Origin: Dactylosporangium siamense
GTDB taxonomy: Bacteria > Actinomycetota > Actinomycetes > Mycobacteriales > Micromonosporaceae
Length of the DNA: 64,000 nt
Assembly: GCF_016862795.1 (NCBI RefSeq)
Contig: NZ_BONQ01000015.1
Span: 1 to 64,000 of the forward strand
Direction: 5' to 3'
Position 1 is the stretch's first letter. Every line of letters starts with the position of its first letter. Shown piece by piece: positions 8,107 through 58,755 of this stretch. The position numbers and the translations under genes were made by a program. Below the pieces are notes generated by a model. The model did not search any database, was not told where the DNA came from, and was given only the letters and a program-made list of their open reading frames with translations.

Positions 8107-8108
8107 CC

Positions 8109-9011: not shown

Positions 9012-9035
9012 CGCTCTCGATCGAAGGACACGCAC

Positions 9036-31141: not shown

Positions 31142-33784
31142 ATGAGCAGCTTGACACACACCTTGAGGATCCGGCGGCTGGTGGCCACCACCGTGCTGGG
31201 CGCGCTGGCGGTGCCGCTGTGCGTGTTCGGGCCGGGAGCTACGTCCGCGACGGCGTCGACCACGTGCACACCGGTGACCTACACCGACTGCGCCCGCTTC
31301 GGCTACACCGGCGCCGACGAGACGTTCACCGTCCCGGCCGGCGTCACCGGTCTCCGAGTGAAGCTCTGGGGCGCCGGCGGCGCGAACGGCGACGGGGCCA
31401 AGGGCGGCGGTGGCGGCTTCACCACGGGGACCCTCACCGTCACACCCGGGCAGGTCCTCAAGATCACGGTCGGCCAGGCCGGCCAGCAGCACTCCGTCGT
31501 CGGGACCTACGGCGGGGGCGGCCGCGGCGGCATCTCGGGCGGCGGCCTGACCGAGAGCGTCAGCGACGGCGGCAGCGGCGGCGGGATGTCGGCGGTCTGG
31601 GGCACCTCCTACGGGGTGGATCCGAAGTTCATCGCCGGTGGCGGCGGTGCCGGCGCGATCGACACGACCCGCGACGCGGGCGGCGGTGGCGGCACCACCG
31701 GCGGGGCCGGCGTGAACGTCGCCTCCGGCGGCGGCGCGACCCAGTCCGTGGCCGGCAGCCCCGGCAACAACGGCTGCGGCGAGGCCGACTGGGGCGGGAT
31801 GTACTCCGGCGGGGCCGGCGGCGACGGCTACAAGGGTGGCGGCGGCGGTGGCGGCGGCTACTTCGGCGGTGGCGGCGGCGACTGCGTGCCCAGCCCCCTG
31901 AGCGCCGCGCTGTCGGGCGCCGGTGGCGGCGGGTCCGGATACAAGGCCGTCACCGGAGTCTCGGCGGCGTCCACCGTCCAGGCGGTCGACGAGAACTCCG
32001 CCGGGGCGGGTGACGGGTTCCACACGGCCGGCATCGGCGACGCCGAGGGCAACGGCATGGTCGTGATCCAGTGGACCGCCCCACCGACCGCGTCCCCGCT
32101 GACCTCGTCCGGACCTTACGGCCTGCCGCAGACCGCGACCGCGACCATCCCGTTCGACGGCTCGGTGAGACTGCTGGACGGCGCCAGCCAGCCGGCGACC
32201 ACCGTGACGCTGGTGCCCGCCGAGGGCACGTACACCCTCGCCGTGGGCACGGGCGTCATCACCTTCACCCCCGCGAACGGCTTCACCGGTGTCGCGGCAC
32301 CGGTCACGTACAAGCTGACGGCCGACTCGCTGTCGGCGACGTCGACCTACACCCCGACCGTCGGACCGCCCCCGGGGCCGACGGCGGCGCCGCTGACGAG
32401 CGCCGGCGTGGGCACCGCGCCCCAGACCGCGACCGTGGCGAGCTGCGAGGGCTGCACGGTGACGCTGCTGAGCGCCGGCGGCCAGCCGGCCACCACGGTG
32501 ACCGTGGCCCAGCAGGGCAGCTACACCCGCACCGGATCCGTCCTCACGTTCACGCCGGTCAAGGGATTCGCCGGGGTCGCCACGCCGGCCGGGTACCGGA
32601 TCACCGACAGCGAGAGCCGCACCGCCACCTCCACGTACACGCCGACGGTCACCAAGCCCGCGCCGCCGCACGCGGTGGCGAAGACGAGCACCGGCCTGGG
32701 GACGGCCGCGCAGTCGGCCGCCGTCGACGTGCCCGACGGCGTGACCGTGACCCTGCTCGACGGCGCGGATCCGGTGTCCACGGTGACGCGGTCCGGCGAG
32801 GGCACCTACGGCTGGAGCGGCACCGACCAGCGGCTCACGTTCAGCCCGGTGGCCGGGTTCGTCGGCGTCGCCGGATCGGTCGCCTACCGCGTGACCGACG
32901 CGTACCAGCAGCACGACGACTCCACGTACACGGCGACCGTCACGAAGCCGCCGCCGCCGGCCGCGCCGGACCGCACCACGTCCGGTGTCGGTGTCACGCC
33001 GCAGACGGCGACGCTGCCGGTGCCGGCGAGCGGCAGCATCGCGCTGATCGACGCGAACGGCAACCCGACCACGTCGCTGTTCATCGAGGCCAAGGGCACC
33101 TACACGCTGACCCTCGCCCCGGCCACGACGGCCACTGCGGCCACCGCGGCCACTGCGGCCACCGCGTCCGTCACGGCCACCGCGTCCGCCGCCGGCACGG
33201 TGCCGAATCCGTCGCCACAGGCGGGCAGCGCGCTCGTGACGTTCACGCCGGTGCTCGGCTTCCACGGCCAGCTGCCGCCGGTCCCGTACATGGTGACCGA
33301 CGCCTACGGGCAGACCGCGAACGCGACCTACACGCCGCTGGTGACGATCCCCGGGCCGCCGGAGACGCCGTCGCGCAACACCACCGGACCGGTGGACGAG
33401 ACGCAGACGGCACAGCTCGCGGTGCCCAGCGGCGGGTCGATCACGCTGCTCGACGCGCGCGGCCGGCCGGCGACGCTGGTGCGGATCCCGGGGCAGGGCA
33501 CCTACATCCTGCAGCCGGCGAACGGGAAGATCAGCTTCGTGGCCGTGAACGGCTTCACCGGCCAGGCGAAGGCGGTCCGGTACCGGGTGATCGACGCCTA
33601 CGGGCAGACCGCGGAGTCGACCTACGCCGCCAACGTGGTGCCGTCGACGCTCGCGGTGACCGGCCTCGGGCTGGTCAACCTGATCCTGGTGGGCGCCTCG
33701 ATGATCTCGACCGGCGCGGCCCTGGTCGGCCTGGGTTCCCGGCGGCGCGGCACCGCGGTGCCGATCGCGGTGGCCAGCCGGTAG
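31142..33784 (+). CDS. sortase-anchored surface protein: Gly-rich domain plus five CshA-type repeats
   Basis: 880 aa. Signal peptide of about 38 residues; a glycine-rich domain (about 46-305) with GGGGGGGGYFGGGGG-like stretches; then five repeats of about 95 residues of the CshA fibril type (LLDG..QPATTVT..GTYT....ITFTP..GFTG.A..V.Y..TD....STYTPTV). LAVTG at 837-841, a hydrophobic segment and RRRG form a LAxTG sorting signal of the sortase E type. Repeat 4 has an Ala/Thr insertion from a nucleotide repeat. ATG at 31142 follows GGGGG closely. It is probably a long surface fibril for adhesion or aerial-growth structure (inference). Confidence 0.82.
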   Translation: MSSLTHTLRIRRLVATTVLGALAVPLCVFGPGATSATASTTCTPVTYTDCARFGYTGADETFTVPAGVTGLRVKLWGAGGANGDGAKGGGGGFTTGTLTVTPGQVLKITVGQAGQQHSVVGTYGGGGRGGISGGGLTESVSDGGSGGGMSAVWGTSYGVDPKFIAGGGGAGAIDTTRDAGGGGGTTGGAGVNVASGGGATQSVAGSPGNNGCGEADWGGMYSGGAGGDGYKGGGGGGGGYFGGGGGDCVPSPLSAALSGAGGGGSGYKAVTGVSAASTVQAVDENSAGAGDGFHTAGIGDAEGNGMVVIQWTAPPTASPLTSSGPYGLPQTATATIPFDGSVRLLDGASQPATTVTLVPAEGTYTLAVGTGVITFTPANGFTGVAAPVTYKLTADSLSATSTYTPTVGPPPGPTAAPLTSAGVGTAPQTATVASCEGCTVTLLSAGGQPATTVTVAQQGSYTRTGSVLTFTPVKGFAGVATPAGYRITDSESRTATSTYTPTVTKPAPPHAVAKTSTGLGTAAQSAAVDVPDGVTVTLLDGADPVSTVTRSGEGTYGWSGTDQRLTFSPVAGFVGVAGSVAYRVTDAYQQHDDSTYTATVTKPPPPAAPDRTTSGVGVTPQTATLPVPASGSIALIDANGNPTTSLFIEAKGTYTLTLAPATTATAATAATAATASVTATASAAGTVPNPSPQAGSALVTFTPVLGFHGQLPPVPYMVTDAYGQTANATYTPLVTIPGPPETPSRNTTGPVDETQTAQLAVPSGGSITLLDARGRPATLVRIPGQGTYILQPANGKISFVAVNGFTGQAKAVRYRVIDAYGQTAESTYAANVVPSTLAVTGLGLVNLILVGASMISTGAALVGLGSRRRGTAVPIAVASR
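33117..33192 (+). repeat. tandem repeat encoding Ala-Thr tract in the surface protein
   Basis: Alternating GCCACTGCG and GCCACCGCG units encode ATAATAATA-type sequence inserted in the fourth CshA-type repeat. The frame is kept. Confidence 0.75.
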
Positions 33785-35611: not shown

Positions 35612-36295
35612 TCAGCGCCGGCGCAGGCCGTCCATCAGGAGGGTGAGCAGGCGCTCGAGGCGGTTGGCGTCGGCCGGGCCGCGGTCGGTGGCCCAGGCGA
35701 TGCCGGTGGCCTGGATGAGCAGGTCGGTGGCGTTGACGTCGGTGCGCACCGCGCCGGTGCGCTGCGCCTCCGTGAGCAGGCGGGTGGCCGCGGTCTGGAT
35801 CACGCCGCACGAGTGGTGCAGCGGGCCGGTCGGTTCGCGCAGCGAGGCGAGGACCGAGGCGGGCAGGACCTGGAACGATTTCGTGTAGGCCACGAACTCG
35901 CGCAGCCAGGTGCCCAGCGCCTCGGCCGGGTCGGTGGTGGGGTCCGGCTCGTGCGCGGCCAGCTGCTCGAAGCGCTCGCGCACGACCGCCTCGATCAGCG
36001 CCTCCCGGGTGGGGAAGTGGCGGTAGAGGGTCGCGTTGCCGACGCCGGCGCGCTGGGCGATGCCGTCCAGCGAGGCCTCGGCGCCGTGCTCGTGGAAGGC
36101 CTCGGTCGCGGCGGCGACGAGGCGTTCGTAGTTGCGGCGGGCGTCGGCGCGGGCACCCCGCCGCACCAGCGCGGGTGCCGGCGTCGCCGTGGGCGCAGCG
36201 GCGGCAGGCGGCGGGGCGGTGGGCTGGCGCGGGGGTGCCGGTGCCGGCGGGGTGGCGGTGGCCGTGCCCGCGGCGGGGCTGCGCCGGGCGGCCAT
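35612..36295 (-). CDS. TetR-family repressor
   Basis: 227 aa. After an unusual Pro/Ala-rich N-terminal extension of about 45 residues comes a canonical TetR helix-turn-helix (AFHEHGAEASLDGIAQRAGVGNATLYRHFPTREALIEAVV). ATG at 36295 was preferred over 36304 because AGGA is 8 bases upstream of it. It is divergent from an MFS efflux gene and two GGGG-N5-CCCC dyads lie between them; the nearer overlaps its probable transcription start (TACGAT then AGGGGG). The same dyads recur at 49.27-49.31 kb, so it likely also controls the genes there. Confidence 0.88.
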   Translation of the reverse strand: MAARRSPAAGTATATPPAPAPPRQPTAPPPAAAAPTATPAPALVRRGARADARRNYERLVAAATEAFHEHGAEASLDGIAQRAGVGNATLYRHFPTREALIEAVVRERFEQLAAHEPDPTTDPAEALGTWLREFVAYTKSFQVLPASVLASLREPTGPLHHSCGVIQTAATRLLTEAQRTGAVRTDVNATDLLIQATGIAWATDRGPADANRLERLLTLLMDGLRRR

Positions 36296-36314
36296 CAGCG
36301 CCATCCTGCTTGCA

Positions 36315-36335
36315 AAACGGGGACCATCCCCCTAT
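36315..36335. promoter_or_regulatory. TetR operator candidate 1 (GGGG-N5-CCCC)
   Basis: AAACGGGGACCATCCCCCTA, with GGGG at 36319-36322 and CCCC at 36328-36331. It lies just upstream of tetR and overlaps its predicted start region. Equivalent sites are at 36349-36369, 49264-49284 and 49293-49314. Confidence 0.65.
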
Positions 36336-36348
36336 CGTAACATCGCAT

Positions 36349-36369
36349 AAACGGGGATAGTCCCCGGTA
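36349..36369. promoter_or_regulatory. TetR operator candidate 2 (GGGG-N5-CCCC)
   Basis: AAACGGGGATAGTCCCCGGT, centred 34 bp from candidate 1 and 47 bp upstream of the MFS ATG. Confidence 0.65.
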
Positions 36370-36415
36370 GTGCCTGGGCTGATCTCGGCCGGCGCTTGCG
36401 CACGTGAGGATCTTC

Positions 36416-37855
36416 ATGTCTGCTTCCACGGCCACGTCCAGCCCGGCTGCGCCGAAGCACGGCGCCGGACGGCTCGGCAAACACCCGGGAGTCATCCTCG
36501 CCCTGCTCGTGACCTGCTACCTGATGATCATCGTGGACAACAACGTGGTAACCATCGCGCTGCCGCAGATCCAGGACAGCCTGCACATGTCCGCGACCGG
36601 CCTGTCGTGGGTGCTGAGCTCCTACACGCTGACGTTCGGCGGGCTGCTGCTGCTCGGCGGCCGGGCCGGTGACGTGTTCGGCCGCCGCCGCGTCTTCGTG
36701 ACCGGGGTGGTCCTGTTCACCGTCAGCTCGCTGCTGGGCGGCCTGGCCACCACGGCGTGGTGGTTGCTGGCCGCCCGCGCCGTGCAGGGCCTCGGTGCCG
36801 CGCTGGCGTCCCCGGGTGCGATGGCGTTGCTGATGACCAACTTCAAGGAAGGCCCGGCCCGCAACCGGGCCCTGGCGGTGTATTCCACGCTCGCGGGCCT
36901 CGGCATGGCGATCGGCATGATCCTCGGCGGCCTGCTGACCGAGTGGACCTCGTGGCGCTGGGTGCTGTTCATCAACGTGCCGTTCGGTGTCGTCGTCGCC
37001 GTCCTGACGCCGATCTACATCGCCGACCCGGAGCGCCACCCCGGCCGGGTCGACATCGCCGGCGCGCTGACCGGCACCGCCGCCACGGCCGCGCTGGTGT
37101 ACGGGTTCATCCGCGCCTCCGAGGTCGGCTGGGGTGACCCGCTGACGCTGTCCGCCTTCGCCGCGGCCGTCGTGCTCCTCGCCGTGTTCCTGGTGGTGCA
37201 GCGGCTGGTCCCGCACCCGACGGTGCCGCTGCAGCTCTTCGCCGACCGCAACCGGGCCGCCGGCTACGCCACCGTGCTGCTGACCATGGCGTGCCTGTTC
37301 GGTGTGCTGTTCTTCATCTCCCAGTTCCTGCAGGACATCCTGCACTACTCGGCGCTGCAGGCCGGTCTGGCCTTCCTGCCCATGGCGGCCGGCATGTTTG
37401 GCATGTCCCGATGCACGCCCTGGCTGCTGCCCCGGGTCGGGGCCTTGCGGCTGATTTTGATCGGGCTGGCGGTGGTGGCCGGCGGTGCTGGGTGGCTGTC
37501 GCGGCTCGGCGAGCACACCGCCTACGCGCCCGGCCTGCTGGTGCCGATGCTCATGCTCGGCGTCGGCATCGGCACGTTCCTGATGCCGCTGACCGCCCTC
37601 ATCCTCGGCGGGGTGGCGCCCCGCGACGCGGGCGCGGCCGCCGGGGTCATGCAGACGATGCAGCAGGTGGGCGGGTCGCTCGGCCTGGCGATCCTGGTGA
37701 CGGTGTACGGCACGACGCTGCGCCACGGTGCCGCGTCCACCCCGGCGCTGACCGCGCACGCAATGGGCAACGCATTCGTCGCGGCCACCGTCAGCGTGGT
37801 CCTGGCCTTCATCCTCGTCGCCGTCGCGATCCGTCCCTCGCGGCGTGCGGCCTGA
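36416..37855 (+). CDS. MFS efflux transporter, DHA2 (14-TM) type
   Basis: 479 aa with about fourteen hydrophobic segments. Signature regions are LMIIVDNNVVTIALPQIQDSLHMS (motif of DHA2 TM1), GRAGDVFGRRRVF (motif A) and GLGMAIGMILGGLLTEWTSWRWVLFINVPFG (motif C). Such proton antiporters export drugs or terpenoids and are commonly repressed by a divergent TetR protein, as here. ATG at 36416 follows GAGGA. Given the terpenoid genes downstream, self-protection or product export is plausible (inference). A hairpin at 37887-37917 ends the transcript. Confidence 0.88.
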   Translation: MSASTATSSPAAPKHGAGRLGKHPGVILALLVTCYLMIIVDNNVVTIALPQIQDSLHMSATGLSWVLSSYTLTFGGLLLLGGRAGDVFGRRRVFVTGVVLFTVSSLLGGLATTAWWLLAARAVQGLGAALASPGAMALLMTNFKEGPARNRALAVYSTLAGLGMAIGMILGGLLTEWTSWRWVLFINVPFGVVVAVLTPIYIADPERHPGRVDIAGALTGTAATAALVYGFIRASEVGWGDPLTLSAFAAAVVLLAVFLVVQRLVPHPTVPLQLFADRNRAAGYATVLLTMACLFGVLFFISQFLQDILHYSALQAGLAFLPMAAGMFGMSRCTPWLLPRVGALRLILIGLAVVAGGAGWLSRLGEHTAYAPGLLVPMLMLGVGIGTFLMPLTALILGGVAPRDAGAAAGVMQTMQQVGGSLGLAILVTVYGTTLRHGAASTPALTAHAMGNAFVAATVSVVLAFILVAVAIRPSRRAA

Positions 37856-38003: not shown

Positions 38004-38069
38004 TGTCCGTGTCGATCCAGGTGGCCAGTGGGTCGGTATCCCGGATTGTGGACACCCTCAGGAGGGCCC

Positions 38070-40622
38070 ATGGAACACGGCGTCCAGACCGGTCAGGTGC
38101 GGGAGTTCTACCTGCCCGAGCTGCCGAGACTGCTGCCCGTCGCGTACCACCCCGACGCCGCCCGCATCGAGTTCACGTCCAACGGGTGGATCCGGCGGTG
38201 GCTCGGCGACACCTTCGCCGCCGAGGCCGACCTGGCATTCTTCCTGCGCCAGCGCAACGGCATCTACGGGCCGCTGACCGTGCCGGCGGCGGAGCGCCAA
38301 CGGGCGCAGGACATCGCCGACTGGTACCAGTACGTCACCGTCATCGACAGCTTCGTGTCAGACCGCTCGGCGCTCGGCGCCAGCGACACCGCGGCCCGCG
38401 AGGTCTTCGCCGCCCTCATGGCCGAGTTTCGCGGCGCCGCGCCGCCGGCCGCCGACGGCGGGAGGTACGGCGCGGCCGGCCGGGACCTGTGGCGGCGCAT
38501 CAGCCCCGGCCTGAGCCGGGCCCAGGTGCGGCGCTTCGGCGACAGCCTGGAAGCGTTCCTGCGCGGCTGCGCCACCGAGATCAAGGCCAAGCTCACCGGC
38601 GAGGTGCCGGACTACGAGGCCTGCCTGGCCGTGCGGCTGGACAGCTTCGGCTGCGACTTCATCGAGCTGATGACGGAGTACGGCGCGGCCGTCGACATGA
38701 CGGAGTTCATCGGCGAGCTGGCCGACGTGCACCTCCACTGCCGGCGGCAGATGATCATCGTCAACGACCTGCTGTCGTGGCGCAAGGAACACGCCCAGGA
38801 CGACAAGATGACGGTCGTCCGGGTCCTCATCGAGCGCGAAGGGTACGACCTGCAGCCGGCCGTGGACCGCCTGTGCGGCCTCGTCGAGCACCACGAGCGG
38901 GCCTACATCGCCGCCCGCGACGAGGTCCTCGCGGGTCCGCTGGGCGGGCGCGAGGACATCCGCGCCTACCTGCGCGGCCTGGACCACCTCATCGGCGGCA
39001 GCCAGGAGTTCGAGTACCTCACGCCCCGCTACTACGGCGACGGTTCGGTCTGGGATGGCAGCACCCACGGCTGGCTCGACCTCGACGCCCCGGTGGCCCG
39101 GTTCCGGGAGACCCCCAGGAGCCCGGCCACCGAATCCACTGTGGACATCGGGAACGACGCGGCGCGCTGCCCGGTGCCGCACGGACCGCCGGCGAGCCGG
39201 GAGAAGCGGGCGAACCAGGAGCCGCGCAAGCCCGCGGACCGGCCGCAGCGGACCTTCGCCGTGGCGCCCGGTGCGGTGCCGGTGCTCGGGCACGCCCTGC
39301 AGCTCTGGCGCCGGCCGCTGGGGTTCCTCAAGCAGCTGCCCGCCCTCGGCGACCTGGTCGAGATCCGGCTCGGCTCGCGGCCGGCCTACCTGGCCTGCCA
39401 TCCCGACGTCGTCATGCAGGTCCTGCTCGACTCGCGGACCTTCGACAAGGGCGGCCCGCTGTTCGAGAAGGCCCGCCTGCTCGTCGGCAACGGCCTGGTG
39501 AGCTCGGAGTGGGAGGACCACCGCCACCAGCGCCGGATGCTGCAGCCCGCGTTCCACCACGCGCGGATGCGCGGGTACGTGTCGCTGATGGCGGAGGAGA
39601 TCGACGCGGTGACGGACGCCTGGCACGAGGGTGAGGCCTTCGACGTCAGCGACGCCATGCACGCACTGACCCTGCGGATCACCGCGCGCACGATGTTCGG
39701 CACCACCGTCGGCGACCGGGCGATCCCCGAGGTGGCCTACTGCATGCCCATCATCATGCGCGGGGTGTACCAGCGGATGGTCGCCCCGGTCGGGTGGCAC
39801 GAGAAGGTGCCGACACCGGGCAACCGCCGCTTCGACGCGGTCCGGGCCCGCATGCACGACGTGATCCGGGAGACCATCGAGGACACCCGGCGGTCCGCCG
39901 TCGACCGCGGCGACCTGCTGTCGATCCTGGTCAACGCCCGCGACGATGAGACCGGGGGGAAGCTGACCGACGAGGAGATCTACGACCAGGTCATGACCCT
40001 GCTGATCGGTGGGACGGAGACCACCGGCAACACCATGGCGTGGGTCTTCCACATCCTCGGCCAGCACCCGGAGGTAGAGCGCCGCCTGCACGCCGAGATC
40101 GACGACGTGCTCGGCGGGCGGGCGCCCGGCTTCGACGACCTGCCCCGGCTGACCTTCACCTGGCAGGTGCTGCAGGAGACGCTGCGGATGTACCCGCCGG
40201 CCTGGCTGCTCACCCGCACCACCACCAAGGAGACCGAGCTGGCCGGGCGGCGGATCGCACCCGGGTCGATCGTCATGTACAGCCCCTACGCGCAGGGGCA
40301 CAACCCGGCGCTGTTCCCCGACCCGGAGGTCTTCGACCCGGACCGGTGGCTGCCGGAACGCGCCAAGGGCCTGCCGCGCGGCGCGATGGTCCCGTTCAGC
40401 ATGGGCAACCGCAAGTGCATCGGCGACACGTTCGGCCAGGCCGAGACCACGCTGACCCTGGCGACGATCGCAACCGGATGGCGGCTGCGCCCCCAGGCGG
40501 GTGCCGGGCCGCAGACCGCGGTGCCGAAGGCGTCGCTGGGCACCGGGCGCCTGCTCATGCTGCCCCGCCGCCGCGACCGCAGTCCGGTGTCCGCCCCGCC
40601 GGTCCTGACCGACGTGCGCTGA
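38070..40622 (+). CDS. terpene synthase-cytochrome P450 fusion protein
   Basis: 850 aa in one uninterrupted frame. Residues 1-345 are a class I terpene synthase: Asp-rich motif IDSFVSD (D93, D98; second Asp of DDxxD is Ser), NSE triad NDLLSWRKE (232-240) and the terminal RY pair (320-321). A linker (about 346-395) rich in Pro, Arg and Glu follows. Residues about 396-850 are a P450: I-helix GGTETT (647-652), ETLR (703-706) and FSMGNRKCIG with haem-ligand C783. CAGGAGGG at 38059-38066 sets the start. It should cyclise a prenyl diphosphate and oxidise the hydrocarbon in one polypeptide. Redox partners are not encoded nearby. First gene of the terpene operon. Confidence 0.92.
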   Translation: MEHGVQTGQVREFYLPELPRLLPVAYHPDAARIEFTSNGWIRRWLGDTFAAEADLAFFLRQRNGIYGPLTVPAAERQRAQDIADWYQYVTVIDSFVSDRSALGASDTAAREVFAALMAEFRGAAPPAADGGRYGAAGRDLWRRISPGLSRAQVRRFGDSLEAFLRGCATEIKAKLTGEVPDYEACLAVRLDSFGCDFIELMTEYGAAVDMTEFIGELADVHLHCRRQMIIVNDLLSWRKEHAQDDKMTVVRVLIEREGYDLQPAVDRLCGLVEHHERAYIAARDEVLAGPLGGREDIRAYLRGLDHLIGGSQEFEYLTPRYYGDGSVWDGSTHGWLDLDAPVARFRETPRSPATESTVDIGNDAARCPVPHGPPASREKRANQEPRKPADRPQRTFAVAPGAVPVLGHALQLWRRPLGFLKQLPALGDLVEIRLGSRPAYLACHPDVVMQVLLDSRTFDKGGPLFEKARLLVGNGLVSSEWEDHRHQRRMLQPAFHHARMRGYVSLMAEEIDAVTDAWHEGEAFDVSDAMHALTLRITARTMFGTTVGDRAIPEVAYCMPIIMRGVYQRMVAPVGWHEKVPTPGNRRFDAVRARMHDVIRETIEDTRRSAVDRGDLLSILVNARDDETGGKLTDEEIYDQVMTLLIGGTETTGNTMAWVFHILGQHPEVERRLHAEIDDVLGGRAPGFDDLPRLTFTWQVLQETLRMYPPAWLLTRTTTKETELAGRRIAPGSIVMYSPYAQGHNPALFPDPEVFDPDRWLPERAKGLPRGAMVPFSMGNRKCIGDTFGQAETTLTLATIATGWRLRPQAGAGPQTAVPKASLGTGRLLMLPRRRDRSPVSAPPVLTDVR

Positions 40623-40645: not shown

Positions 40646-41695
40646 ATGAACCAGCCCAACCCCGTGCTGACGGCGCCGGCACTCCGCGGCTCGGACCCCC
40701 TGGAACGCTGCCGGGACCTGGTGACACCGGCGCTGCGCGGCACCGTCGACCGGCTGCACCCCGACCTGGCCCGGCTGGCCGCGTACAGCTTCGGCTGGAC
40801 CGAAGCCGCGGGCGGCGGTGGCAGCGGCAAGAGCGTCCGCCCGGCCCTCGCGCTGCTGTCGGCCGAGGCGGTCGGCGGCACGGCGGAAGCGGCCGTCCCC
40901 GGTGCTGTGGCGGTCGAACTGGTGCACGTCTTCTCCCTGGTGCACGACGACATCATGGACGGCGACGAGCGGCGGCGGCACCGCCCTACGCTGTGGAAGG
41001 CGTTCGGCGTCGGGCCGGCCCTGCTCGTCGGCGACGCGTTGCTGGCCCTGGCCGCCGACGTGCTGGCCCGCACGCCCGACGCGGTCGCCCTCGCCGCCGC
41101 CGGGCAGCTGTCCGGCATGCTGGTCGACCTGTCCAACGGCCAGGCCGAGGACCTCGCCTTCGAAGGCCGCCCATGGACCGGGCCGCAGGCGGTCACCCTG
41201 GCCGACTACCAGCGGCTGGCGCTGCTGAAGACCGGGGCCCTGCTCGGCTGCGCCACCGGCCTCGGCGCGCTGCTCGGCGGCGCGCCCGCCGAGGTGGTCA
41301 CGACCATGACGCAGTTCGGCCGGCAGCTGGGGGTGGCGTTCCAGGCGGTCGACGACCTGCTGGGCATCTGGGGCGACCCGGCGGCCACCGGCAAGCCCGT
41401 CTTCAGCGACCTCCGGGCGCGCAAGAAGACGCTGCCGGTCGTCGCGGCGCTCGGAGCGCTCGGCCCGGCGGCCACCGAGCTGGCCGCGCTGCTGGGCACG
41501 CCGCACACCGACGAGCGGGCGCTGCGCCGGGCCGCGGACCTGATCGACGCGGCCGGCGGCCGGGCCCTCGCCGCCGAGCACGCCCGGCGGCACCTCGACG
41601 GCGCGCGGCGGAGCATCGACGCGGCCGCGGTGGACCCGACCGCCGCGGCGCAGCTGCACCAGATGGTGGCGTTCATCGTCGACCGCGCCCACTGA
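40646..41695 (+). CDS. polyprenyl diphosphate synthase (FPP/GGPP type)
   Basis: 349 aa trans-isoprenyl diphosphate synthase. First Asp-rich motif HDDIMDGDERRRHRPT (D101, D102, D105) and second motif FQAVDDLLGIWGD (D236, D237) are intact. It makes the allylic substrate for the fusion synthase; chain length cannot be fixed, though a Phe five residues before the first motif and no insertion in it resemble GGPP-type enzymes. It begins 23 bp after the fusion gene, with GAGAGGGGA upstream, so it is in the same operon. Confidence 0.9.
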   Translation: MNQPNPVLTAPALRGSDPLERCRDLVTPALRGTVDRLHPDLARLAAYSFGWTEAAGGGGSGKSVRPALALLSAEAVGGTAEAAVPGAVAVELVHVFSLVHDDIMDGDERRRHRPTLWKAFGVGPALLVGDALLALAADVLARTPDAVALAAAGQLSGMLVDLSNGQAEDLAFEGRPWTGPQAVTLADYQRLALLKTGALLGCATGLGALLGGAPAEVVTTMTQFGRQLGVAFQAVDDLLGIWGDPAATGKPVFSDLRARKKTLPVVAALGALGPAATELAALLGTPHTDERALRRAADLIDAAGGRALAAEHARRHLDGARRSIDAAAVDPTAAAQLHQMVAFIVDRAH

Positions 41696-41757: not shown

Positions 41758-43116
41758 ATGACCGCCACGCTCCAGCCCACGCCCACCCGCATCCCGGGGC
41801 GGCTGCCGCTGCTCGGGCACATGCACCGGCTGCTGGCCGACCCGCGCGGCTTCTTCCGGTCGCTGCACGGCACCGGCGACGACGTCGTCGTCATCCGCCT
41901 CGGCCCGAGCCCGGCGTACGTGATCAACGACCGGACGCTGGTGCACCAGATCCTCACCAGGGACGTCCGCAAGCTGGACAAGGGTCTGGCGTATGAGAAG
42001 TCCGCCCCGTTCCTGGGTGACGGGCTGCTCAACTCGACCGAGCCGACGCACATGGCGCACCGGCGCCTGATGCAACCGGCGTTCCACCACACGCAGATCG
42101 CCCGCTACGTGGAACAGATGCGGGAGGCGGCCGCGGCCCGGGTCAACGGCTGGCACGACGGCCGGCGGATCGAGATGGACCAGGAGATCCACGCGTTCGC
42201 GGTGGCGGTGGTGTGCCGGGCGCTGTTCTCCTCCGGCCTGGGCGACTCGGTCGCCGTCGACGTGGAGGAGTCGTTGCCGGTCCTGCTCAAGGGCGTCACC
42301 CGGCGCATCGCGCTGCCCGTGGGGTGGCTGGAGAAGCTGCCGACCCCGGGCAACCGGCGGTTCGACGCGGCCCGGCAGCGGCTGGCCGGCTCCCTCGGCG
42401 GCGTCATCGAGGAGTACCGCCGGCGCGGGGTCGACCACGGCGACCTGATGGCGATCCTGCTGGAGGCGCGGGCCGAGGACGGCGGGCCGGGCCTGACCGA
42501 CCAGCAGGTGCACGACGAGGCGATGGCCCTGTTCCTGGGCGGCGTGGAGACCGCCCGGGACGTGCTGAGCTGGGCCTTCCACCTCATCGGTGGGCACCCG
42601 GAGGTGCAGCGCGGGATCGCTGCCGAGGTCGACGCGGTGCTGGCGGACCGCCCGCTGGGCTACGAGACGCTGGGCGAGCTGAAGTACGTGCGGCAGGTCA
42701 TCACCGAGACGCTGCGGCTGTACCCGCCGGCGTGGCTGCTGACCCGCCGCACGGTCACCGAGCTCGAACTCGGCGGGCACGTGATCCCGCCCGGCAGCAA
42801 CGTGCTGTTCTCGGTGCACGCGATCCAGCGCGACCCGGCCGTGTACCCCGAGCCGGACACGTTCGACCCGCAGCGCTGGCGCGATCCGGGCACACCGGCC
42901 CTGCTGCGCACCGCCTTCCTGCCGTTCGGCGCGGGCAACCGCAGCTGCATCGGCGAGCCGTTCGCCTGGGCCGAGATGGTCGTCTTCATCGCCACCGTCG
43001 CGCGCCGCTGGAGCGTGCACGGCGTGCCCGGGCACCCGATCCGGCCGGCGCGTTCACCGATGCTGCAGCCGCGGGACCTGCCGCTGATCGTGTGGTCCCG
43101 CCCCGGCGCCAGATGA
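41758..43116 (+). CDS. cytochrome P450 (related to the fused P450 domain)
   Basis: 452 aa. I-helix GGVETA (261-266; the usual second Thr is Ala), ETLRLYPPAWLLTRRTV and haem motif FGAGNRSCIG with C397. It shares LPTPGNRRFDA, FHH and PPAWLLTR blocks with the P450 half of the fusion protein, so the two are paralogues. CGGAGG at 41745-41750 precedes the ATG. It likely performs a later oxidation of the terpene. The stop overlaps the IclR start (ATGA). Confidence 0.92.
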   Translation: MTATLQPTPTRIPGRLPLLGHMHRLLADPRGFFRSLHGTGDDVVVIRLGPSPAYVINDRTLVHQILTRDVRKLDKGLAYEKSAPFLGDGLLNSTEPTHMAHRRLMQPAFHHTQIARYVEQMREAAAARVNGWHDGRRIEMDQEIHAFAVAVVCRALFSSGLGDSVAVDVEESLPVLLKGVTRRIALPVGWLEKLPTPGNRRFDAARQRLAGSLGGVIEEYRRRGVDHGDLMAILLEARAEDGGPGLTDQQVHDEAMALFLGGVETARDVLSWAFHLIGGHPEVQRGIAAEVDAVLADRPLGYETLGELKYVRQVITETLRLYPPAWLLTRRTVTELELGGHVIPPGSNVLFSVHAIQRDPAVYPEPDTFDPQRWRDPGTPALLRTAFLPFGAGNRSCIGEPFAWAEMVVFIATVARRWSVHGVPGHPIRPARSPMLQPRDLPLIVWSRPGAR

Positions 43117-43877
43117 TGAGCGTCGCCGTGACGCCCCCGCTGTCAGGCCTCAGCGGAGCCGGGCGGGCGATCGAGCGTTCGTATCTCGTGCTGGGCAACC
43201 TCCCGGCCGACGGCGGCTCGATCGGGGTGTCGGAGGTGGCGCGGCGCACCGGCCTGCCGAAGTCCACCGCGTTTCGCATCCTGTCGCTCCTGACCAGCCT
43301 GCGGCTGGCCGACCGGCGGGACAACGGCTACCGGCTCGGGCACCGGATCATCGAGCTGGCCGGGCAGTCGGGCCGGCCGCGCGCCTCCGTGCTGCGCGAC
43401 CGGCTCCTGCCGCACCTGCTCGACCTGTTCGCGCTCACCGGGCACGCCGTGTACCTGGGCGTGCCGCACGACGAGGGCGTGCTGTGCCTGGAGGACCTGC
43501 ACGGGCACCAGGCGGTGCCACTGCCGGTGCGGCTGGGGCGGATCACGCCCGCGCACCGCACCGCGATGGGCCGCATCCTGCTCGCCTTCGACCCGGACGT
43601 GCCGGCCGGCGCGGACGCACCCGCCGGGCTGGACGCGGACCTCGACCGGCTCCGCGCGGGCGGTCTCGCCGTGGACACCGGCGCATTCCGGGGGGCCTTC
43701 CGGGCCGGCGTCGACTGCGTCGCGGCTCCGGTCTGGGCGCCGGGCCGGCGTATCGCCGCCGCGCTCATGGTGGCCGGCCCGGCCGGCCGGGCCGACGTCG
43801 CGCGGGTGTCCCGGCAGGTGCGGGAGGCTGCGGCCGCCGCCTCCCACACGCTGCGCACGGACGTCACGCGACGCTGA
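43113..43877 (+). CDS. IclR-family regulator of the terpene cluster
   Basis: 254 aa. Winged helix ([48 protein letters not shown]) and the IclR effector domain ([20 protein letters not shown]) are present. It is coupled to the P450 gene, so it is made with the biosynthetic enzymes and probably regulates the cluster. Its 3' end overlaps convergent ispG by 14 bases. ATG at 43116 is an alternative start. Confidence 0.85.
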
Positions 43878-45039
43878 CCGTCGGGCCCGCGCCCTTCGCT
43901 CCGGACGCTTCGGATGACAGGTCGACGCCCAGGTCCTCGGCGATCTGGACGGCGTGCGCGACGAGGGTCTCCACGATCTGCGCCTCCGGCACGGTGGCCA
44001 CGACCTTCCCCTGGACGAAGATCTGCCCCTTGCCGTTGCCGGACGCGACGCCCAGGTCGGCCTCCCGCGCCTCGCCGGGGCCGTTGACGACGCAGCCCAT
44101 CACGGCCACCCGCAGCGGCACCGGGAACCCTTCGAGGGCCGCGGTCACCCGCTCGGCGAGGGTGTACACGTCGACCTGCGCCCGGCCGCAGGACGGGCAG
44201 GAGACGATCTCCAGCCCCCGCTGCCGCAACCCCAGGGACTCCAGGATCTGGGTGCCGACCTTGATCTCCTCGACCGGCGGGGCGGACAGCGACACCCGGA
44301 TGGTGTCGCCGATGCCGCCGGCGAGGAGCACTCCGAAGGCCACCGCCGACTTGATCGTGCCCTGGAACGCCGGCCCGGCCTCGGTCACGCCCAGATGCAA
44401 CGGATACGGGCACGCCTCGGCCAGCAGCCGGTACGCCCGGACCATGACGACCGGGTCGTTGTGCTTGACGGAGAGCTTGATGTCGTGGAAGCCGTGCTCC
44501 TCGAACAGCGAGCACTCCCACAGCGCGGACTCGACGAGCGCCTCCGGCGTCGCCCGGCCGTGCTTGCGCAGGAGCCGCGGATCCAGGGAACCGGCGTTGA
44601 CGCCGATCCGGATGGGGATGCCCGCCGCCGATGCCGCCTGCGCGATCTGCCCCACCTTGTCGTCGAACTGCTTGATGTTGCCCGGGTTGACCCGCACGGC
44701 GGCGCAGCCGGCGTCGATCGCGGCGAACACGTACCGGGGCTGGAAGTGGATGTCGGCGATCACCGGGATCCGTGACTTGCGGGCGATCGCCGGCAGTGCG
44801 TCGGCGTCGTCCTGCGACGGCACGGCGACCCGGACGATCTGACAGCCGGCCGCGGTCAGTTCGGCGATCTGCTGCAGGGTGGCGTTCACGTCCGCGGTCG
44901 GTGTGGTCGTCATCGACTGCACGGAGACCGGGGCGCCGCCGCCGACGGGCACCGGGCCGACCATCACCTGCCGGGACCGTCGCGGTGCGGCCAGTGGGGC
45001 CATCGGTGGGCGGGGCAGCCCGAGCGCTGTCACCGTCAT
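43864..45039 (-). CDS. ispG: 4-hydroxy-3-methylbut-2-en-1-yl diphosphate synthase
   Basis: 391 aa, normal for bacterial IspG/GcpE. Motifs: [15 protein letters not shown] at the N-terminus, [28 protein letters not shown], and the [4Fe-4S] cysteines in SCPSCGRAQ and [17 protein letters not shown]. It converts MEcPP to HMBPP in the MEP pathway. It follows dxs by 4 bases. The last residues overlap the IclR gene tail to tail. Primary-metabolism ispG genes are usually elsewhere next to dxr, so this is probably a dedicated second copy (inference). Confidence 0.95.
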
Positions 45040-45043
45040 GTCG

Positions 45044-46825
45044 TCACACTCCCTGCCAGGTGAAGGTTGCGGTGTACGTGTCGGCGACCGCTGCGGCCAG
45101 CTGGTCGGCGTCCAGGCCGATGTCGGTGAGCACCTCGGCGCGTGCGGCGTGGGCCAGGAAGCGCCGGGGGATGCCGAAGTTGCGCAGCGGGGTGTGCACG
45201 CCGGCGTCGCGCAGTTCCTGCGCCAGCACCGAGCCGACCCCGCCGCAGCGGCTGTTGTCCTCCACGGTGACCACGAGGTGGTACCGGGCGGCGAGGGCCA
45301 CGACCGCCGGGTCCAGCGGCGTCACCCAGCGCGGGTCGAGGACCGTCGCGTCGATGCCCCGCCCGGCGAGCAGCTCGGCGGTGCGCACCGCGACCGGTGC
45401 CATCGCACCCACGCCCAGGATCAGCACGTCCGGGTCGGTGCCGCGGGTCAGGACGTCGGCGGTGCCGCAGCGGCCGACGGCGGGGATGTCCGCCGGGACG
45501 GTGCCCTTCGGGAACCGCAGCGCGGTGGGCGCGTCGGTGACGTCCAGGGCCTCCCGCAGCTCGGCCCGCAGGGTCGCCGCGTCGCGGGGCGCCGCGACCC
45601 GCAGGCCGGGCATGAGCTGCAGCAGCGACAGGTCCCACATGCCGTGGTGGCTCGGGCCGTCGTTGCCGGTGATGCCGGCCCGGTCCAGCACCAGCGTCAT
45701 CGGCGTGCGGTGCAGCGCCGCGTCCATGAGCACCTGGTCGAAGGCGCGGTTGAGGAAGGTGGCGTAGATGGCGACGACCGGGTGCAGCCCGCCGAGGCTG
45801 AGCCCGACCGCGGAGGTCACCGCGTGCTGCTCGGCGATGCCGACGTCGAAGACCCGGCCGGGGTGCGCGGCCGCGAACGCGTCCAGGCCCACCGGCTGCA
45901 GCATCGCGGCGGTGACGGCGACCACGTCGGCACGGTCGGCGCCCACCTGGACCATCTCCTCGGCGAACACGGACGTCCAGCTCCGCCCGCCCGCCCCGGC
46001 CAGGGGCCGACCGGTGGCCGGGTCGATGACGCCGACGCTGTGGAACTGGTCCGCCTCGTCCTGCTCCGCCGCCGGATATCCGGCGCCCTTGCGGGTGACG
46101 CAGTGCACGACGACCGGCTCCGGCAGGTCGCGGGCCTGCCGCAGGACCTGCTGGACGGCGTCCAGGTCGTGCCCGTCGACCGGCCCGAGGTAGCGCAGGC
46201 CCAGCTGCTCGAACGCCGCGGCGCCGCCGGTGGATCCGGCGCGCAGCGCGGTCAGGTGCTCGGCCAGGCCGCCGACGGTGGGCGCGTAGGAGCGGCCGTT
46301 GTCGTTGAGCACCACCACGACGTTCGGCGACCGGGCCGCGGCGATGTTGTTCAGCGCCTCCCAGGACATGCCGCCGGTCAGCGCGCCGTCGCCGACGACC
46401 GCGACGACGTGCCGGTCGACCTCGCCGCGCAGCCGGTACGCCTTGGCGAGGCCGTCGGCGTAGCTCAACGCGGTCGAGGCGTGGGAGTTCTCGATGATGT
46501 CGTGCGGTGATTCGGCCCGGGACGGGTAGCCGGACAGCCCGTCCTTGCGGCGCAACCCGTCCAGCTGCCCGGCCCGGCCGGTGAGGATCTTGTGGACGTA
46601 CGCCTGGTGGCCGGTGTCGAACAGGATCCGGTCCCGCGGTGAGTCGAAGACCCGGTGGACGCCGAGCGTCAGCTCGACCACGCCCAGGTTCGGCCCGAGG
46701 TGCCCGCCGGTGCGGCTCACCCGGTCGATGAGCAGCCGGCGGATCTCGGCGGCGAGCTCCCGCAGGGCGTCGCGACCCAACGTCCGCAGGTCGTGCGGCT
46801 CTCGGATGGAGTCCAGTACTGCCAT
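45044..46825 (-). CDS. dxs: 1-deoxy-D-xylulose-5-phosphate synthase
   Basis: 593 aa, slightly shorter than typical Dxs. The thiamine diphosphate motif [16 protein letters not shown] spans 145-160, and [14 protein letters not shown] and [20 protein letters not shown] are diagnostic. It commits pyruvate and glyceraldehyde 3-phosphate to the MEP pathway and is the usual flux-controlling enzyme, so a local copy would raise prenyl precursor supply. It is divergent from ispH and leads a dxs-ispG transcript. Confidence 0.95.
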
Positions 46826-46992
46826 GGTGCTCCTTCGCCCGGATGTTCGGCGGCGGGCGTGCCGCCCACCCTGTGGTCTACGGCGTCGGGCGCGGCCGCG
46901 ACCAGACGTGCGTGCCGTCGGGCGGAACGCGGGCCTCGGGCGGGACCCCGCCCCGCTCCTACGATCACCGGGTCGAACAAGGGAGGCGACTC

Positions 46993-48177
46993 ATGCCGGC
47001 TCAAGTCATCACCGGTGCGGTGCCGCGACGCGACGGGCTCGCCGCCGGTGACGTGCTCGTCCCCGACGGGGACGACAACCCGTTGCTGACGGCCGAACTG
47101 CGGCACCGGGGCCTGCGGGTGCACACCGGCACCTGGGCGTCCTTCGGGCTGCCGGCGCCGCCGGCGCCGGCCGTCGCCGTGTACACAGTGGACGGTCCGG
47201 ACGGCACCGGCACGGTCGGCGCGGTGCTGGCCGGCTGGCACGCCGCGGCCGGGGCGCGCACTGTGCTGCTACCGCAGCCGCAGTCGTTCTGCGCCGGGGT
47301 CGAGCGGGCCATCGAGATCGTCGAGGAGGCGCTGGCCCGGTTCCCGCACCCGGTCTACGTCCGCAAGCAGATTGTGCACAACCTGCACGTGGTGCGCGAC
47401 CTCGCGGACCGGGGCGCCGTCTTCGTCGACGAACTGGACGAGGTACCCGCAGGGGCGACTGTGGTGTTCTCCGCCCACGGCGTCGCGCCGTCCGTACACC
47501 AGGAAGCCGCCGGACGCCGGTTGCGGGTGATCGACGCGACCTGCCCCCTGGTCACCAAGGTGCACAGCGAGGTGCGCCGCTTTGCCCGGCGGGACCACCA
47601 GATCGTGCTCATCGGGCATGCCGGGCACGAGGAGGCCGAAGGCACCCTCGGCGAGGCGCCGGAACGCACCCGGCTCGTGCAGACCGCGGCGGACGTCGCG
47701 GCGCTGCCGGACATCGACGGACCCGTCGCCTACGTGACCCAGACCACCCTGGCCGTCGACGAGGTGACCGCGGTGGTCGCCGCGCTGCGCGAACGGTTCC
47801 CGCAGATCACCGGGCCCGGCAGCGATGACGTCTGCTACGCCACCACCAACCGGCAGCGGGCGGTCCTCGCGGTCGCGGGGGAGTCCGATCTGGTGTACGT
47901 GGTCGGTTCGCGGAACTCGTCGAACTCGGTGCGCCTGGTGGAGCTCGTCGAGCGGGCCGGGAAGTCGGCCCGGCTCATCGAGGACGTCACCGGTGTCCGG
48001 CTGGCCGAGCTGGCCGGCGCCACGACGGTCGGGCTGACCGCGGGCGCGTCGGCGTCGCCGACCCTGGTCGCGCGGATCGTGCGCAGCCTGCGCCGGCTCG
48101 GGCCGGTCGAGGTGGTCGAGCGCCGGGTCGCCACGGAGACCATCACCTTCAACCTGCCCCGCGAGCTGGCCTCATAG
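46993..48177 (+). CDS. ispH: 4-hydroxy-3-methylbut-2-enyl diphosphate reductase with N-terminal extension
   Basis: 394 aa; IspH is normally about 310-330. The three cluster cysteines are C100 (QSFCAGVERA), C184 (DATCPLV) and C281 (DDVCYATTNRQ), with spacing near that of E. coli IspH. About 85 extra residues precede the catalytic core and resemble no domain I know. GGGAGG precedes the ATG at 46993. It forms IDP and DMADP. Its 3' end overlaps the convergent oxidoreductase by 6 bases. Confidence 0.93.
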   Translation: MPAQVITGAVPRRDGLAAGDVLVPDGDDNPLLTAELRHRGLRVHTGTWASFGLPAPPAPAVAVYTVDGPDGTGTVGAVLAGWHAAAGARTVLLPQPQSFCAGVERAIEIVEEALARFPHPVYVRKQIVHNLHVVRDLADRGAVFVDELDEVPAGATVVFSAHGVAPSVHQEAAGRRLRVIDATCPLVTKVHSEVRRFARRDHQIVLIGHAGHEEAEGTLGEAPERTRLVQTAADVAALPDIDGPVAYVTQTTLAVDEVTAVVAALRERFPQITGPGSDDVCYATTNRQRAVLAVAGESDLVYVVGSRNSSNSVRLVELVERAGKSARLIEDVTGVRLAELAGATTVGLTAGASASPTLVARIVRSLRRLGPVEVVERRVATETITFNLPRELAS

Positions 48178-56243: not shown

Positions 56244-56585
56244 ATGGACCTTGTCGACGGGTGGGACGACGAGACCGTCCAGGACGCCGTCGACGCCCTG
56301 CAGGACATGGTGCTCTGGGAGATGTCGCCGCAGCGGTGGGAGCACGTCAACGAGCTCATGGGGCTGATCGACGTGGCGTTCCGCGCCCGTGACGTCGGGG
56401 CGCTCCGCGCGGCGGTCCTCGAGCTGGAGGCCGGCGGCGTGATCCGGCTCGGGCGGATCGGCAGCAAGGTCGAGACCAAGATCCCGCCGCCGGTCTTCGA
56501 GCGGCGCAACACGCTGGTGCACACGCTGACGTCCGAGCACCGAGACCCGCCGGAGGACGGTCGTGACAGCAGCCGGCCTGGTTGA
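56244..56585 (+). CDS. CATRA-associated small protein-like
   Basis: 113 aa mostly helical protein: DETVQDAVDALQDMVLWEMSPQRWEHVNELMGLIDVAFRARDVGALRAAVLELEAGGVIRLGRIGSK, then RNTLVHTL. From memory this matches the small protein that accompanies CATRA (caspase and TPR repeat-associated) proteins in actinobacteria. ATG at 56244 has a purine-poor leader; GTG at 56223 is an alternative. It overlaps the next gene by 23 bases, so the pair is coupled. Confidence 0.6.
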   Translation: MDLVDGWDDETVQDAVDALQDMVLWEMSPQRWEHVNELMGLIDVAFRARDVGALRAAVLELEAGGVIRLGRIGSKVETKIPPPVFERRNTLVHTLTSEHRDPPEDGRDSSRPG

Positions 56586-58755
56586 GCCCGAGTTCGTCGT
56601 CCACCTCTTCGCCCCCACCGACGGGCCGGACGCCGGCGCGGCGCTGGCGGGTGTGCGCGCGCTGTGGGAGAACTGCCGCGCCCAGCTCGGCATGACCCAG
56701 CCGATCGTGGAGGTCCAGCTGCGCGCCGACCTGCCCGCCGACCTCACGGAGGGGCCCGACGGTGCCGTCGCCGGCCGGCAGGACCCGACCGTGCAGTTCC
56801 AGGCGATCGCCCGCCGCGAGCACGACGTCCTCAACGTCTCCTTCGCCATCGCGGCGCCCGACGCCGTGCCGCGTTCCCGGACCCGGCTGGGCTCGGCGCT
56901 GCCGCCCGGCTGGCACGAGTTCCACCGCTGGTGGCGCACGCTCGGCGCGGGCACGGGGCTGCTCGGCGGTGCCGTCGTGCTGCTCGCCAAGAGCGAGGAC
57001 CCGGCGGGGGTCGACCTCCGCACGGCGGTGCCCGCCCAGGAGGACGACGGGGACGGCTGGTGGGAGGCGGGTTTCGCGCTGCACGGCTTCGCCGGCTGGG
57101 AGACGACGCCGGCCGGCACGCACGGCACCCGGCGCCTGGTGCTGCTGGCCGGGCTGGACGAGGACGCGGAGCTCAGCCGGTTCGCGTGGAGCGACGGCGG
57201 CACCGCCCTGCCGCCGCTGGGCCGCTACCTCATGCACGCGGCGAAGCTGCGCTACCAGGCCCGGGTGCTCGGCGACGGCGGGCAGCTGGCCCGGCTCCGG
57301 CGGCGGGTCACCGGCCGCCTCGACGAGCTGACCGCCCGGCTGCGCGAGCCCGGTGGGCCGGGCCGGGCCGCGGCCGCCGACCTCGCCGGCGACCGGGCCG
57401 ACCTGGCCGCCACCCTGCAGTCCCTGCGGGTGATGCGGCGCACCGTGGACATCGCGCGGGGCAACATGGCCGGGATCCTCGACGGGCCGCTGCCGGCCGA
57501 CGCCCCGCTCGGCGACTGGCTGGCCCAGCAGCTCGTGGACGACACCGACCTGCTCGAGGCGGCCTGGGAACGCGCGGAGCGGGTCGCGGCCATGCTCGGC
57601 GCGGCGGGCCCGGCGCCCGAGCCGCAGCCCGCGCCGGCGGCGGATCCGGCGCCGTCCCCGCCGCCTCCGGCGGAGGTCGAGCACCGCGTCGGTTTCGACG
57701 TCGACGTCGTCAACTACAGCGGCCGCTCGACGCCGCGGCAGTTCGAGGTGCAGCGCAGGGTCGGCGGCATGATCGAGCGGATCCTCGCCCGCGTCGGCGT
57801 GCCCGTGCACGAGACCGACCGGCAACCGGCCGGCGACGGCATGATGGTCGTGCTGCCCGCGAGCGTGCCGGCCGACGTGGCGCTCCCGGCGCTCCTGCAC
57901 GGCTGGCGGGCGCAGGTGGTGGCGGACAACGCCGAGCACCCGCACGACCGGATCCGGCTGCGGCTGTCCGTGGGCTCCGGGCCGTTCACCCGGTCCGCGA
58001 TCGGGTTCAGCGGCCAGGCGATCATCGAGGTCGGCCGGCTGCTCGACTGCCAGGCGCTGCGGCAGGCGGTGCTCGACCACCCGGACGCGGACCTGGTCGC
58101 GATCGTCGCCGACCGCACCTACCGGGACGTGGTCGGCGAGGGGTACCCGGGACTGCGGCCCGAGGCGTTCGAACCGGCCGAGATCACGATCAAGACGTAC
58201 CAGGGCCGGGCCTGGCTGTGGACCGGCGGCGCCCCGGCCGGACCGCCCCGGCCGGACCGGCACCCGGTCGCCGCGAGCCGCGACGTGTTCGTCATCCACG
58301 GTCCGGGACCGCAGCCGCGCAAGGACATGTTCGAGCTGCTGCGCGCGCTCGACCTGCGCCCGCTCGGCTGGGAGGACATGGTGACCCGGACCGGCCGGCC
58401 GGCCCCCCGGCACGACGAGATCCTCGCGACGGCCTTCGCGGCCGGGCCGGGCGTGCTCGTCGTCATGGCCCCCGGCGAAGAGGCGGACGTGCTGATCCGG
58501 GCCGGCCGGGCGCTGGCGCTCAAACCGGACCACACGATCCCCGTCCAGGTCGGCGCGGTCGCCGCCACCGAACTGGACCGGCGGCAGCCCGTCCGGCTCA
58601 CCCGCGACACGGCCGACGCCAGCGTCGTCTTCCAGCACGAGGTCGCCCAGCGGCTGCGGGCCGTCGGCTATCCGGTCGACACCAGCGGCGCCGACTGGTC
58701 CGACGCGGAGCGGTTCCGCGGGCTGCTGCGGCACCCACCCGACCCTCGGCGGTGA
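56563..58755 (+). CDS. CATRA-type conflict-system protein with cyclase-like and TIR-like domains
   Basis: 730 aa. Residues 1-345 resemble CATRA proteins (EFVVHLFAPTDGPDAGAALAGVRALWENCRAQLGMT; LGRYLMHAAKLRYQARVL). A Pro/Ala linker (346-372) follows. Residues 375-560 resemble a class III nucleotide cyclase: FDVDVVNYS (D381) and AGDGMMVVLP (D425), the two metal aspartates. Residues 573-705 resemble the nucleotide-binding TIR-like domain (DVFVIHGPG; ILATAFAAGPGVLVVMAP), but the Glu expected in the NVLFEAG motif is R646 (DVLIRAG). GTG at 56563 follows GGAGGA. Role in self-defence or signalling is inferred. Confidence 0.65.
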   Translation: MTAAGLVEPEFVVHLFAPTDGPDAGAALAGVRALWENCRAQLGMTQPIVEVQLRADLPADLTEGPDGAVAGRQDPTVQFQAIARREHDVLNVSFAIAAPDAVPRSRTRLGSALPPGWHEFHRWWRTLGAGTGLLGGAVVLLAKSEDPAGVDLRTAVPAQEDDGDGWWEAGFALHGFAGWETTPAGTHGTRRLVLLAGLDEDAELSRFAWSDGGTALPPLGRYLMHAAKLRYQARVLGDGGQLARLRRRVTGRLDELTARLREPGGPGRAAAADLAGDRADLAATLQSLRVMRRTVDIARGNMAGILDGPLPADAPLGDWLAQQLVDDTDLLEAAWERAERVAAMLGAAGPAPEPQPAPAADPAPSPPPPAEVEHRVGFDVDVVNYSGRSTPRQFEVQRRVGGMIERILARVGVPVHETDRQPAGDGMMVVLPASVPADVALPALLHGWRAQVVADNAEHPHDRIRLRLSVGSGPFTRSAIGFSGQAIIEVGRLLDCQALRQAVLDHPDADLVAIVADRTYRDVVGEGYPGLRPEAFEPAEITIKTYQGRAWLWTGGAPAGPPRPDRHPVAASRDVFVIHGPGPQPRKDMFELLRALDLRPLGWEDMVTRTGRPAPRHDEILATAFAAGPGVLVVMAPGEEADVLIRAGRALALKPDHTIPVQVGAVAATELDRRQPVRLTRDTADASVVFQHEVAQRLRAVGYPVDTSGADWSDAERFRGLLRHPPDPRR

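Follow-up and report, generated by a model that had tools for sequence, protein, structure and literature searches.

A VenA-type diterpene synthase joined in one reading frame to a cytochrome P450 in Dactylosporangium siamense

Does the soil actinobacterium Dactylosporangium siamense make a single protein that both cyclises a terpene precursor and oxidises the product, and does it matter that the two activities are joined? The question is raised by an 850-residue open reading frame (38070..40622, ATG to TGA, + strand) in the first 64,000 nucleotides of contig NZ_BONQ01000015.1 (assembly GCF_016862795.1), the stretch of DNA that we analysed and refer to as the window. A first-pass annotation made from the letters alone had read this frame as a class I terpene synthase together with a complete cytochrome P450 in one polypeptide. 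We find that this terpene synthase-P450 fusion is genuine, natural and conserved, and rare in the surveys described below, and we interpret the protein, with a probability of about 0.78, as a natural bifunctional venezuelaene-type diterpene synthase/P450 oxygenase.

The frame begins 4 nt downstream of a Shine-Dalgarno sequence (AGGAGG, 38060..38065, + strand), and the domain search that the annotation had proposed recovered both expected Pfam families within it, far over their cut-offs: Terpene_syn_C_2 at residues 84-276 (E 4.8e-26) and p450 at residues 401-820 (E 5.7e-80), so that a single predicted polypeptide indeed carries both enzymes. The synthase half (residues 1-350, 38070..39119) contains the atypical Asp-rich motif DSFVSD (residues 93-98, 38346..38363), the NSE motif NDLLSWRKE (residues 232-240, 38763..38789) and the RY pair (residues 320-321, 39027..39032), and the P450 half (residues 394-850, 39249..40619; Pfam, NCBIfam and PDB sequence matches) contains the I-helix motif GGTETT (residues 647-652, 40008..40025), the ExxR motif ETLR (residues 703-706, 40176..40187) and the haem-thiolate loop FSMGNRKCIG (residues 776-785, 40395..40424); the motifs and coordinates of the annotation are right. 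The G+C content at third codon positions (GC3) is 0.92-1.00 in all 150-nt intervals of the gene, including those over the linker, which therefore lies within coding sequence. As judged by eye, none of the six in-frame GTG codons at residues 336-411 is preceded by a Shine-Dalgarno sequence; a separate P450 start is accordingly not suggested, and we rejected an internal start in the linker.

The synthase half finds its best PDB sequence match in VenA of Streptomyces venezuelae (7y9g; 509 bits versus 190 for the next), which is also the top Foldseek match of the whole-protein model; over 340 aligned residues, 237 are identical (69.7%). All 21 VenA residues that we checked from sections 7, 8 and 10 of PMC10325987 are identical in the synthase half, among them the aromatic cavity residues Tyr88, Trp107, Tyr108, Phe185, Phe215, Phe219 and Phe338 (VenA numbering). 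This numbering is anchored on DSFVSD (VenA 115-120), the stored chain being offset by 9; in the same parts of the paper a single 'R221K' misfits it and was taken as a slip for Arg211, and position 219 is printed once as Trp and is Phe in the chain. The annotation had remarked on the Ser that stands for the second Asp of the Asp-rich motif as a mechanistic oddity. The Ser is present, but it is a published hallmark of VenA: passages of PMC10325987 explained DSFVSD in 2023, with Asp115 binding Mg2+ and Ser116 and Gln83 replacing the second Asp, and proposed a subclass D(S/T/N)XX(X)D/E. The synthase half shows the features of this subclass, namely an Asp-rich motif without the second Asp, a Gln some 30 residues upstream (Gln61, aligned with VenA Gln83), the NSE triad Asn232/Ser236/Glu240, the pyrophosphate sensor Arg189 and Arg320-Tyr321 (VenA Arg344-Tyr345). 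The aligned rows carry the variants DSFVSD, DSLVSD, DTFVSD, DNLAAD, DNLAVD and DDLAMD, with DDAIAG in genome G099, and the Asp-rich pattern was not found in the G001 row of the alignment. Judged by its sequence, then, the synthase half is an orthologue of VenA (7y9g/7y9h), sharing with it DSFVSD, the Gln/Ser replacement, the NSE and RY motifs and the cavity residues listed above, and differing in that VenA is free-standing whereas the synthase here forms the N-terminal half of an 850-residue protein. The annotation had left the substrate as farnesyl diphosphate (FPP) or geranylgeranyl diphosphate (GGPP). Because the synthase half is related to VenA and a GGPP-synthase-like gene is next in the operon, GGPP is more likely than FPP to be the main substrate. 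VenA also accepts FPP and geranyl diphosphate, and VenD was used for GGPP supply, according to passages of PMC10325987. For a close relative of the synthase half both the structure and the product have been established; venezuelaene A is also made by a VenA homologue of 97% identity (PMC12015392, in part).

The C-terminal half has the I-helix, ExxR and Cys-ligand motifs and the fold of a cytochrome P450. By sequence its closest solved relative is CYP170A1 (PDB 3dbg/3el3), in which, as the title of 3el3 states, distinct monooxygenase and farnesene synthase sites both lie inside the P450; the fusion instead has its synthase as a classical domain of its own. Two NCBIfam families stayed far below their cut-offs: pentalenene oxygenase (NF045812; 453 bits, cut-off 800) and the CYP170A1 family of albaflavenone monooxygenase/terpene synthases (NF051859; 415.9 bits, cut-off 700). 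Trees were built from rows above 40% (synthase), 48% (P450) and 60% (second P450) identity; in them the fused P450 joins the P450s encoded directly 3' of VenA-type genes and stands separate from the second P450s found at four loci, with moderate support (82/89). Two loci of the Streptomyces group (L120 and L121) have synthases 98% identical to VenA and the gene order synthase-P450-P450-GGPP synthase, and it is the first of their P450s, not the second, with which the fused P450 clusters. This first P450 occupies the same place on the same strand and is orthologous by the tree, but it is a separate protein. The fused P450 therefore appears, with moderate support, to be orthologous to the P450 directly after venA-like genes. 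In the fused loci read, one P450 of this subfamily was found, and a P450 of another subfamily is present in Dactylosporangium and in three Frankia/Protofrankia-type loci.

A scan of contigs yielded 44 loci, to which 14 further genome stretches were added later (L and G numbers denote loci and genomes). The same fusion occurs free of gaps in Dactylosporangium fulvum (L001, a complete genome, the halves 86% and 91% identical to those of the window), in Kitasatospora phosalacinea (L005) and in two genomes of the Protofrankia family, L114 and L115, whose frames of 886 and 908 residues contain both domains by Pfam. Across the 21 genomes with a VenA-type synthase that were compared, five are proven to be fused, two are undecided, twelve have the P450 as the next gene and two are without it. 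The undecided cases, Protofrankia coriariae (L004; 147 N in the linker) and Frankia CiP1 (the contig ends in the linker), are probably fused. Wherever a P450 was found at an unfused locus (12/12: L002, L009 and L116-L125) it is the next gene on the same strand; none was found within the stretches taken at L126 and L127. This tally omits loci with relatives of the P450 and no VenA-type synthase (L007, L008, L010-L018, L030, L033 and weaker ones), among them L013 and L018, whose synthases are distant (27-28%). A second VenA-type match (57%) was observed in G010.

Further surveys used separate E-value limits and scored only the best first-look candidates. The synthase was detected in 9 of 392 genomes of the Streptomyces group (E 1e-80), always in frames of 393-510 residues that are too short for a fusion, in 3 of 150 genomes of the window's family including the window itself (E 1e-40), and in 7 of 35 genomes of the Protofrankia family (E 1e-60). 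Within the genus of K. phosalacinea, 43 of 70 genomes match the whole protein (E 1e-100), nearly always through the P450 half alone, and only K. phosalacinea has a close synthase half. Among Actinomycetota drawn evenly, the only hit in 396 was the window itself (E 1e-25), and in none of 152 matching plasmid records does a single stretch reach 80% coverage of the query. Two plasmid spans that had looked like in-frame synthase-P450 fusions (H10 and H3) were rejected for a stop between the genes. In three more genomes of the genus of K. phosalacinea (G014, G018 and G059), spans at 33-34% cover both halves and contain a single stop; they point to candidate fusions in sister strains.

The synthase type and its DSFVSD motif were known before, and the P450 is the usual partner of such a synthase. 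Synthase-P450 fusions have been built by hand in metabolic engineering for yield. Among the matches listed in PubMed Central, a scope that leaves most subscription papers and bioRxiv outside, there was no characterised bacterial synthase-P450 fusion, and a search of the main text of PMC10325987 returned neither 'fusion' nor 'P450'. A one-line entry in the part of PMC8719888 that we cite, 'Fused terpene synthase/P450' of Pseudomonas Ps706, shares the architecture by name alone and is listed with a methyltransferase and an isopentenyl diphosphate isomerase. Euthailol cyclase (PMC11574762, in part) was considered as a cyclase-P450 fusion and rejected: it shares with the present protein a second domain fused to a bacterial diterpene cyclase, but this domain is not a P450; it is a truncated 4-hydroxy-3-methylbut-2-enyl diphosphate reductase that lacks most catalytic residues and is proposed to act as a lid.

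How did the fused state arise, and does it do anything? The fusion lies in three families, D. fulvum belonging to the Micromonosporaceae, Protofrankia to the Frankiaceae and Kitasatospora to the Streptomycetaceae. In a tree computed jointly from the two halves (19 genomes), the seven fused or probably fused members form one group (99/98) together with three unfused Protofrankia-family genomes (G622, G623 and G627). Forcing the seven together without those three, a constraint named after inspection of a first tree, lowered the log-likelihood by 21.9, with a borderline approximately unbiased p-value of 0.045. The minimum number of changes is two, with the two undecided genomes uncounted, a count that fits one fusion and a later split or two fusions and cannot distinguish gain from loss. 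A possible route to the fused state is visible in Streptomyces sp. ISL-1 (L002), where both genes stand in one frame with a lone TGA between them, the P450 likely starting at a GTG 3 nt past the stop, with a ribosome-site-like AAGGAGC within the last part of the synthase gene, so that losing this one stop would fuse both genes. On these grounds, and considering also the unfused genomes inside the fused group and a linker little conserved save for one short motif, we rate it as only slightly short of an even chance that the fusion is a neutral by-product of stop-codon loss between coupled genes, with the enzymes working equally well apart. The presence of the fused state in three families, where both halves are conserved, speaks against this, as does the retention of that motif, CPVPH, in an otherwise changing linker. 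Since fused, unfused and possibly re-split versions of one enzyme pair exist, any benefit of the fusion can be tested with matched natural proteins.

The linker itself (about residues 351-393, 39120..39248, + strand) comprises some 45 residues (about 350-395), slightly fewer than the roughly 50 of the annotation, and evolves fast. Ratios of nonsynonymous to synonymous differences (pN/pS), obtained by a simple count method that is less reliable for more distant pairs, are 0.22 for the synthase, 0.68 for the linker and 0.26 for the P450 between the window and D. fulvum, and 0.36, 0.83 and 0.39 between the window and L114; the D. fulvum comparison indicates purifying selection on both halves. Alignment and a motif scan place CPVPH (39168..39182, + strand) in five linkers, those of the window, D. 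fulvum, P. coriariae, L114 and L115, and not in that of K. phosalacinea. A scan of frames of at least 200 residues (140 sequences) for [GR]CPVPH found it elsewhere only in L041 and L043, where P450-related frames (8393-10738 and 7991-10762, respectively) with a 28% match to the P450 half end in RCPVPHPE. CPVPH may resemble a Cys-Pro haem-regulatory motif. That the fusion shapes the product, the tethered P450 capturing the hydrocarbon before it leaves and CPVPH taking part, for example in haem handling or docking, which would make the protein the first such diterpene synthase-P450 in bacteria, seems to us quite improbable.

The annotation had supposed that fusion channels the hydrocarbon to its first oxidation, and beyond tethering we found no support for this. 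True channelling, in which the domains dock and pass the hydrocarbon through a defined interface, would suit the physical fusion in five proven genomes and a hydrocarbon intermediate that is poorly soluble. We consider it unlikely, given the fast-evolving linker that varies widely in length and sequence, the unfused genomes inside the fused group and, as a weak point, an AlphaFold2 model without a confident domain arrangement. This model, computed from 29 rows, has a mean predicted local distance difference test score (pLDDT) of 81 and a predicted template modelling score of 0.57, with residues 315-389 below pLDDT 50. Only 7 of the 29 rows span the synthase, and its C-terminal stretch (residues 315-349) is also of low confidence, so the low scores in the linker are weak evidence of flexibility; in the underlying alignment (A1), moreover, the synthase row of L018 is misplaced onto P450 columns. 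The model thus agrees, weakly, with two domains on a loose tether.

A different doubt concerns the product. Single residue changes in VenA alter what it makes, according to passages of PMC10325987, and the overall difference of 30% between the two synthases leaves room for another skeleton; with the named cavity residues identical, we hold it doubtful that the synthase half yields a skeleton other than venezuelaene A. Finally, that a frameshift near 39.1 kb or an assembly error joined two genes in this draft of 296 contigs is barely conceivable and was rejected, since the fusion is free of N in four other genomes (D. fulvum, complete, K. phosalacinea, L114 and L115) and GC3 is continuous.

On the + strand, 23 nt 3' of the fusion gene, lies a GGPP-synthase-like polyprenyl diphosphate synthase (40646..41695, profile search; Pfam polyprenyl synthetase family), its counterpart standing 3' of the synthase/P450 also in L001, L003, L004, L005 and L114. 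It is followed by a second, separate P450 of another subfamily (P450b, 41758..43116, +), with relatives in L001, L003, L004 and L114, and by an IclR-type regulator (43113..43877, +) that overlaps P450b by 4 nt; L001 and L005 have this regulator too, and the unfused L119 has a weaker relative (31%). Profile searches identified ispG (gcpE; 43864..45039, -), dxs (45044..46825, -) and ispH (lytB; 46843..48177, +), the last with a LytB domain that begins at residue 141 of 444, so that about 140 residues precede it. The same genome has a full-length dxs on contig C33 and a further ispG on C35, which makes the dxs and ispG of the window second copies. Upstream, a divergent TetR regulator and a major facilitator superfamily exporter (35612-37855), 79% and 91% identical in D. 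fulvum, are possibly the export genes of the cluster.

We propose, for the bifunctional synthase/P450, that the N-terminal half would ionise GGPP with three Mg2+ held by Asp93 (VenA Asp115) and the NSE triad, Ser94 and Gln61 substituting for the missing second Asp, and would cyclise it, giving a scented diterpene, venezuelaene A or a closely related 5-5-6-7 compound. The P450 half would then oxidise the hydrocarbon, perhaps at the ketone position of venezuelaene B, which is 5-oxo-venezuelaene A in the relevant part of PMC10301674. The flexible linker would hold the halves 1:1 and near each other, as a tether and not a built tunnel. GGPP would come from the product of the next gene and its C5 units from the second dxs and ispG together with the adjacent ispH, and P450b may oxidise further. 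Electrons would have to be delivered by redox partners encoded elsewhere. Clusters of this kind in Dactylosporangium, Kitasatospora and the Protofrankia family would likely make oxidised venezuelaenes.

Several results weigh against this proposal. No fused protein has a product known to us, and 30% of the synthase sequence differs from VenA. The fused P450 shares only about 56% identity with the P450 adjoining the VenA-like gene, so that, with the NCBIfam cut-offs missed, its reaction cannot be named. Comparison of the window with K. phosalacinea gives higher pN/pS values, 0.48 for the synthase, 1.04 for the linker and 0.61 for the P450. The adjoining GGPP-synthase-like gene scores 296 bits against the GGPP synthase equivalog NF045549 (cut-off 475), its best NCBIfam family being f2_encap_cargo4 (388.9 bits, below the cut-off of 450), and a GGPP synthase was not found in the 14 kb taken at L115, which include a 597-base run of N. 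Moreover, the two Dactylosporangium loci are the only ones read in which genes of the methylerythritol phosphate pathway flank the fusion.

Other observations were made along the way. Genome G000 encodes, at C39:8651-10363, a 720-residue frame with two terpene synthase domains, presumably a germacradienol/geosmin-type synthase, and has more synthase matches at C96 and C52, the latter adjoining a P450 match. Plasmid NZ_CP108303.1 (L139, 2317-6649) carries a 'hypothetical protein' alignable with the end of the synthase half, then two P450s and after them a small Rieske 2Fe-2S protein, possibly a built-in redox partner. In the window, an 880-residue protein (31142-33784) combines a glycine-rich domain with five matches to the CshA surface-adhesin repeat, and positions 56563-58755 encode a CATRA-N/CATRA-C protein of the caspase- and tetratricopeptide (TPR)-repeat-associated family.

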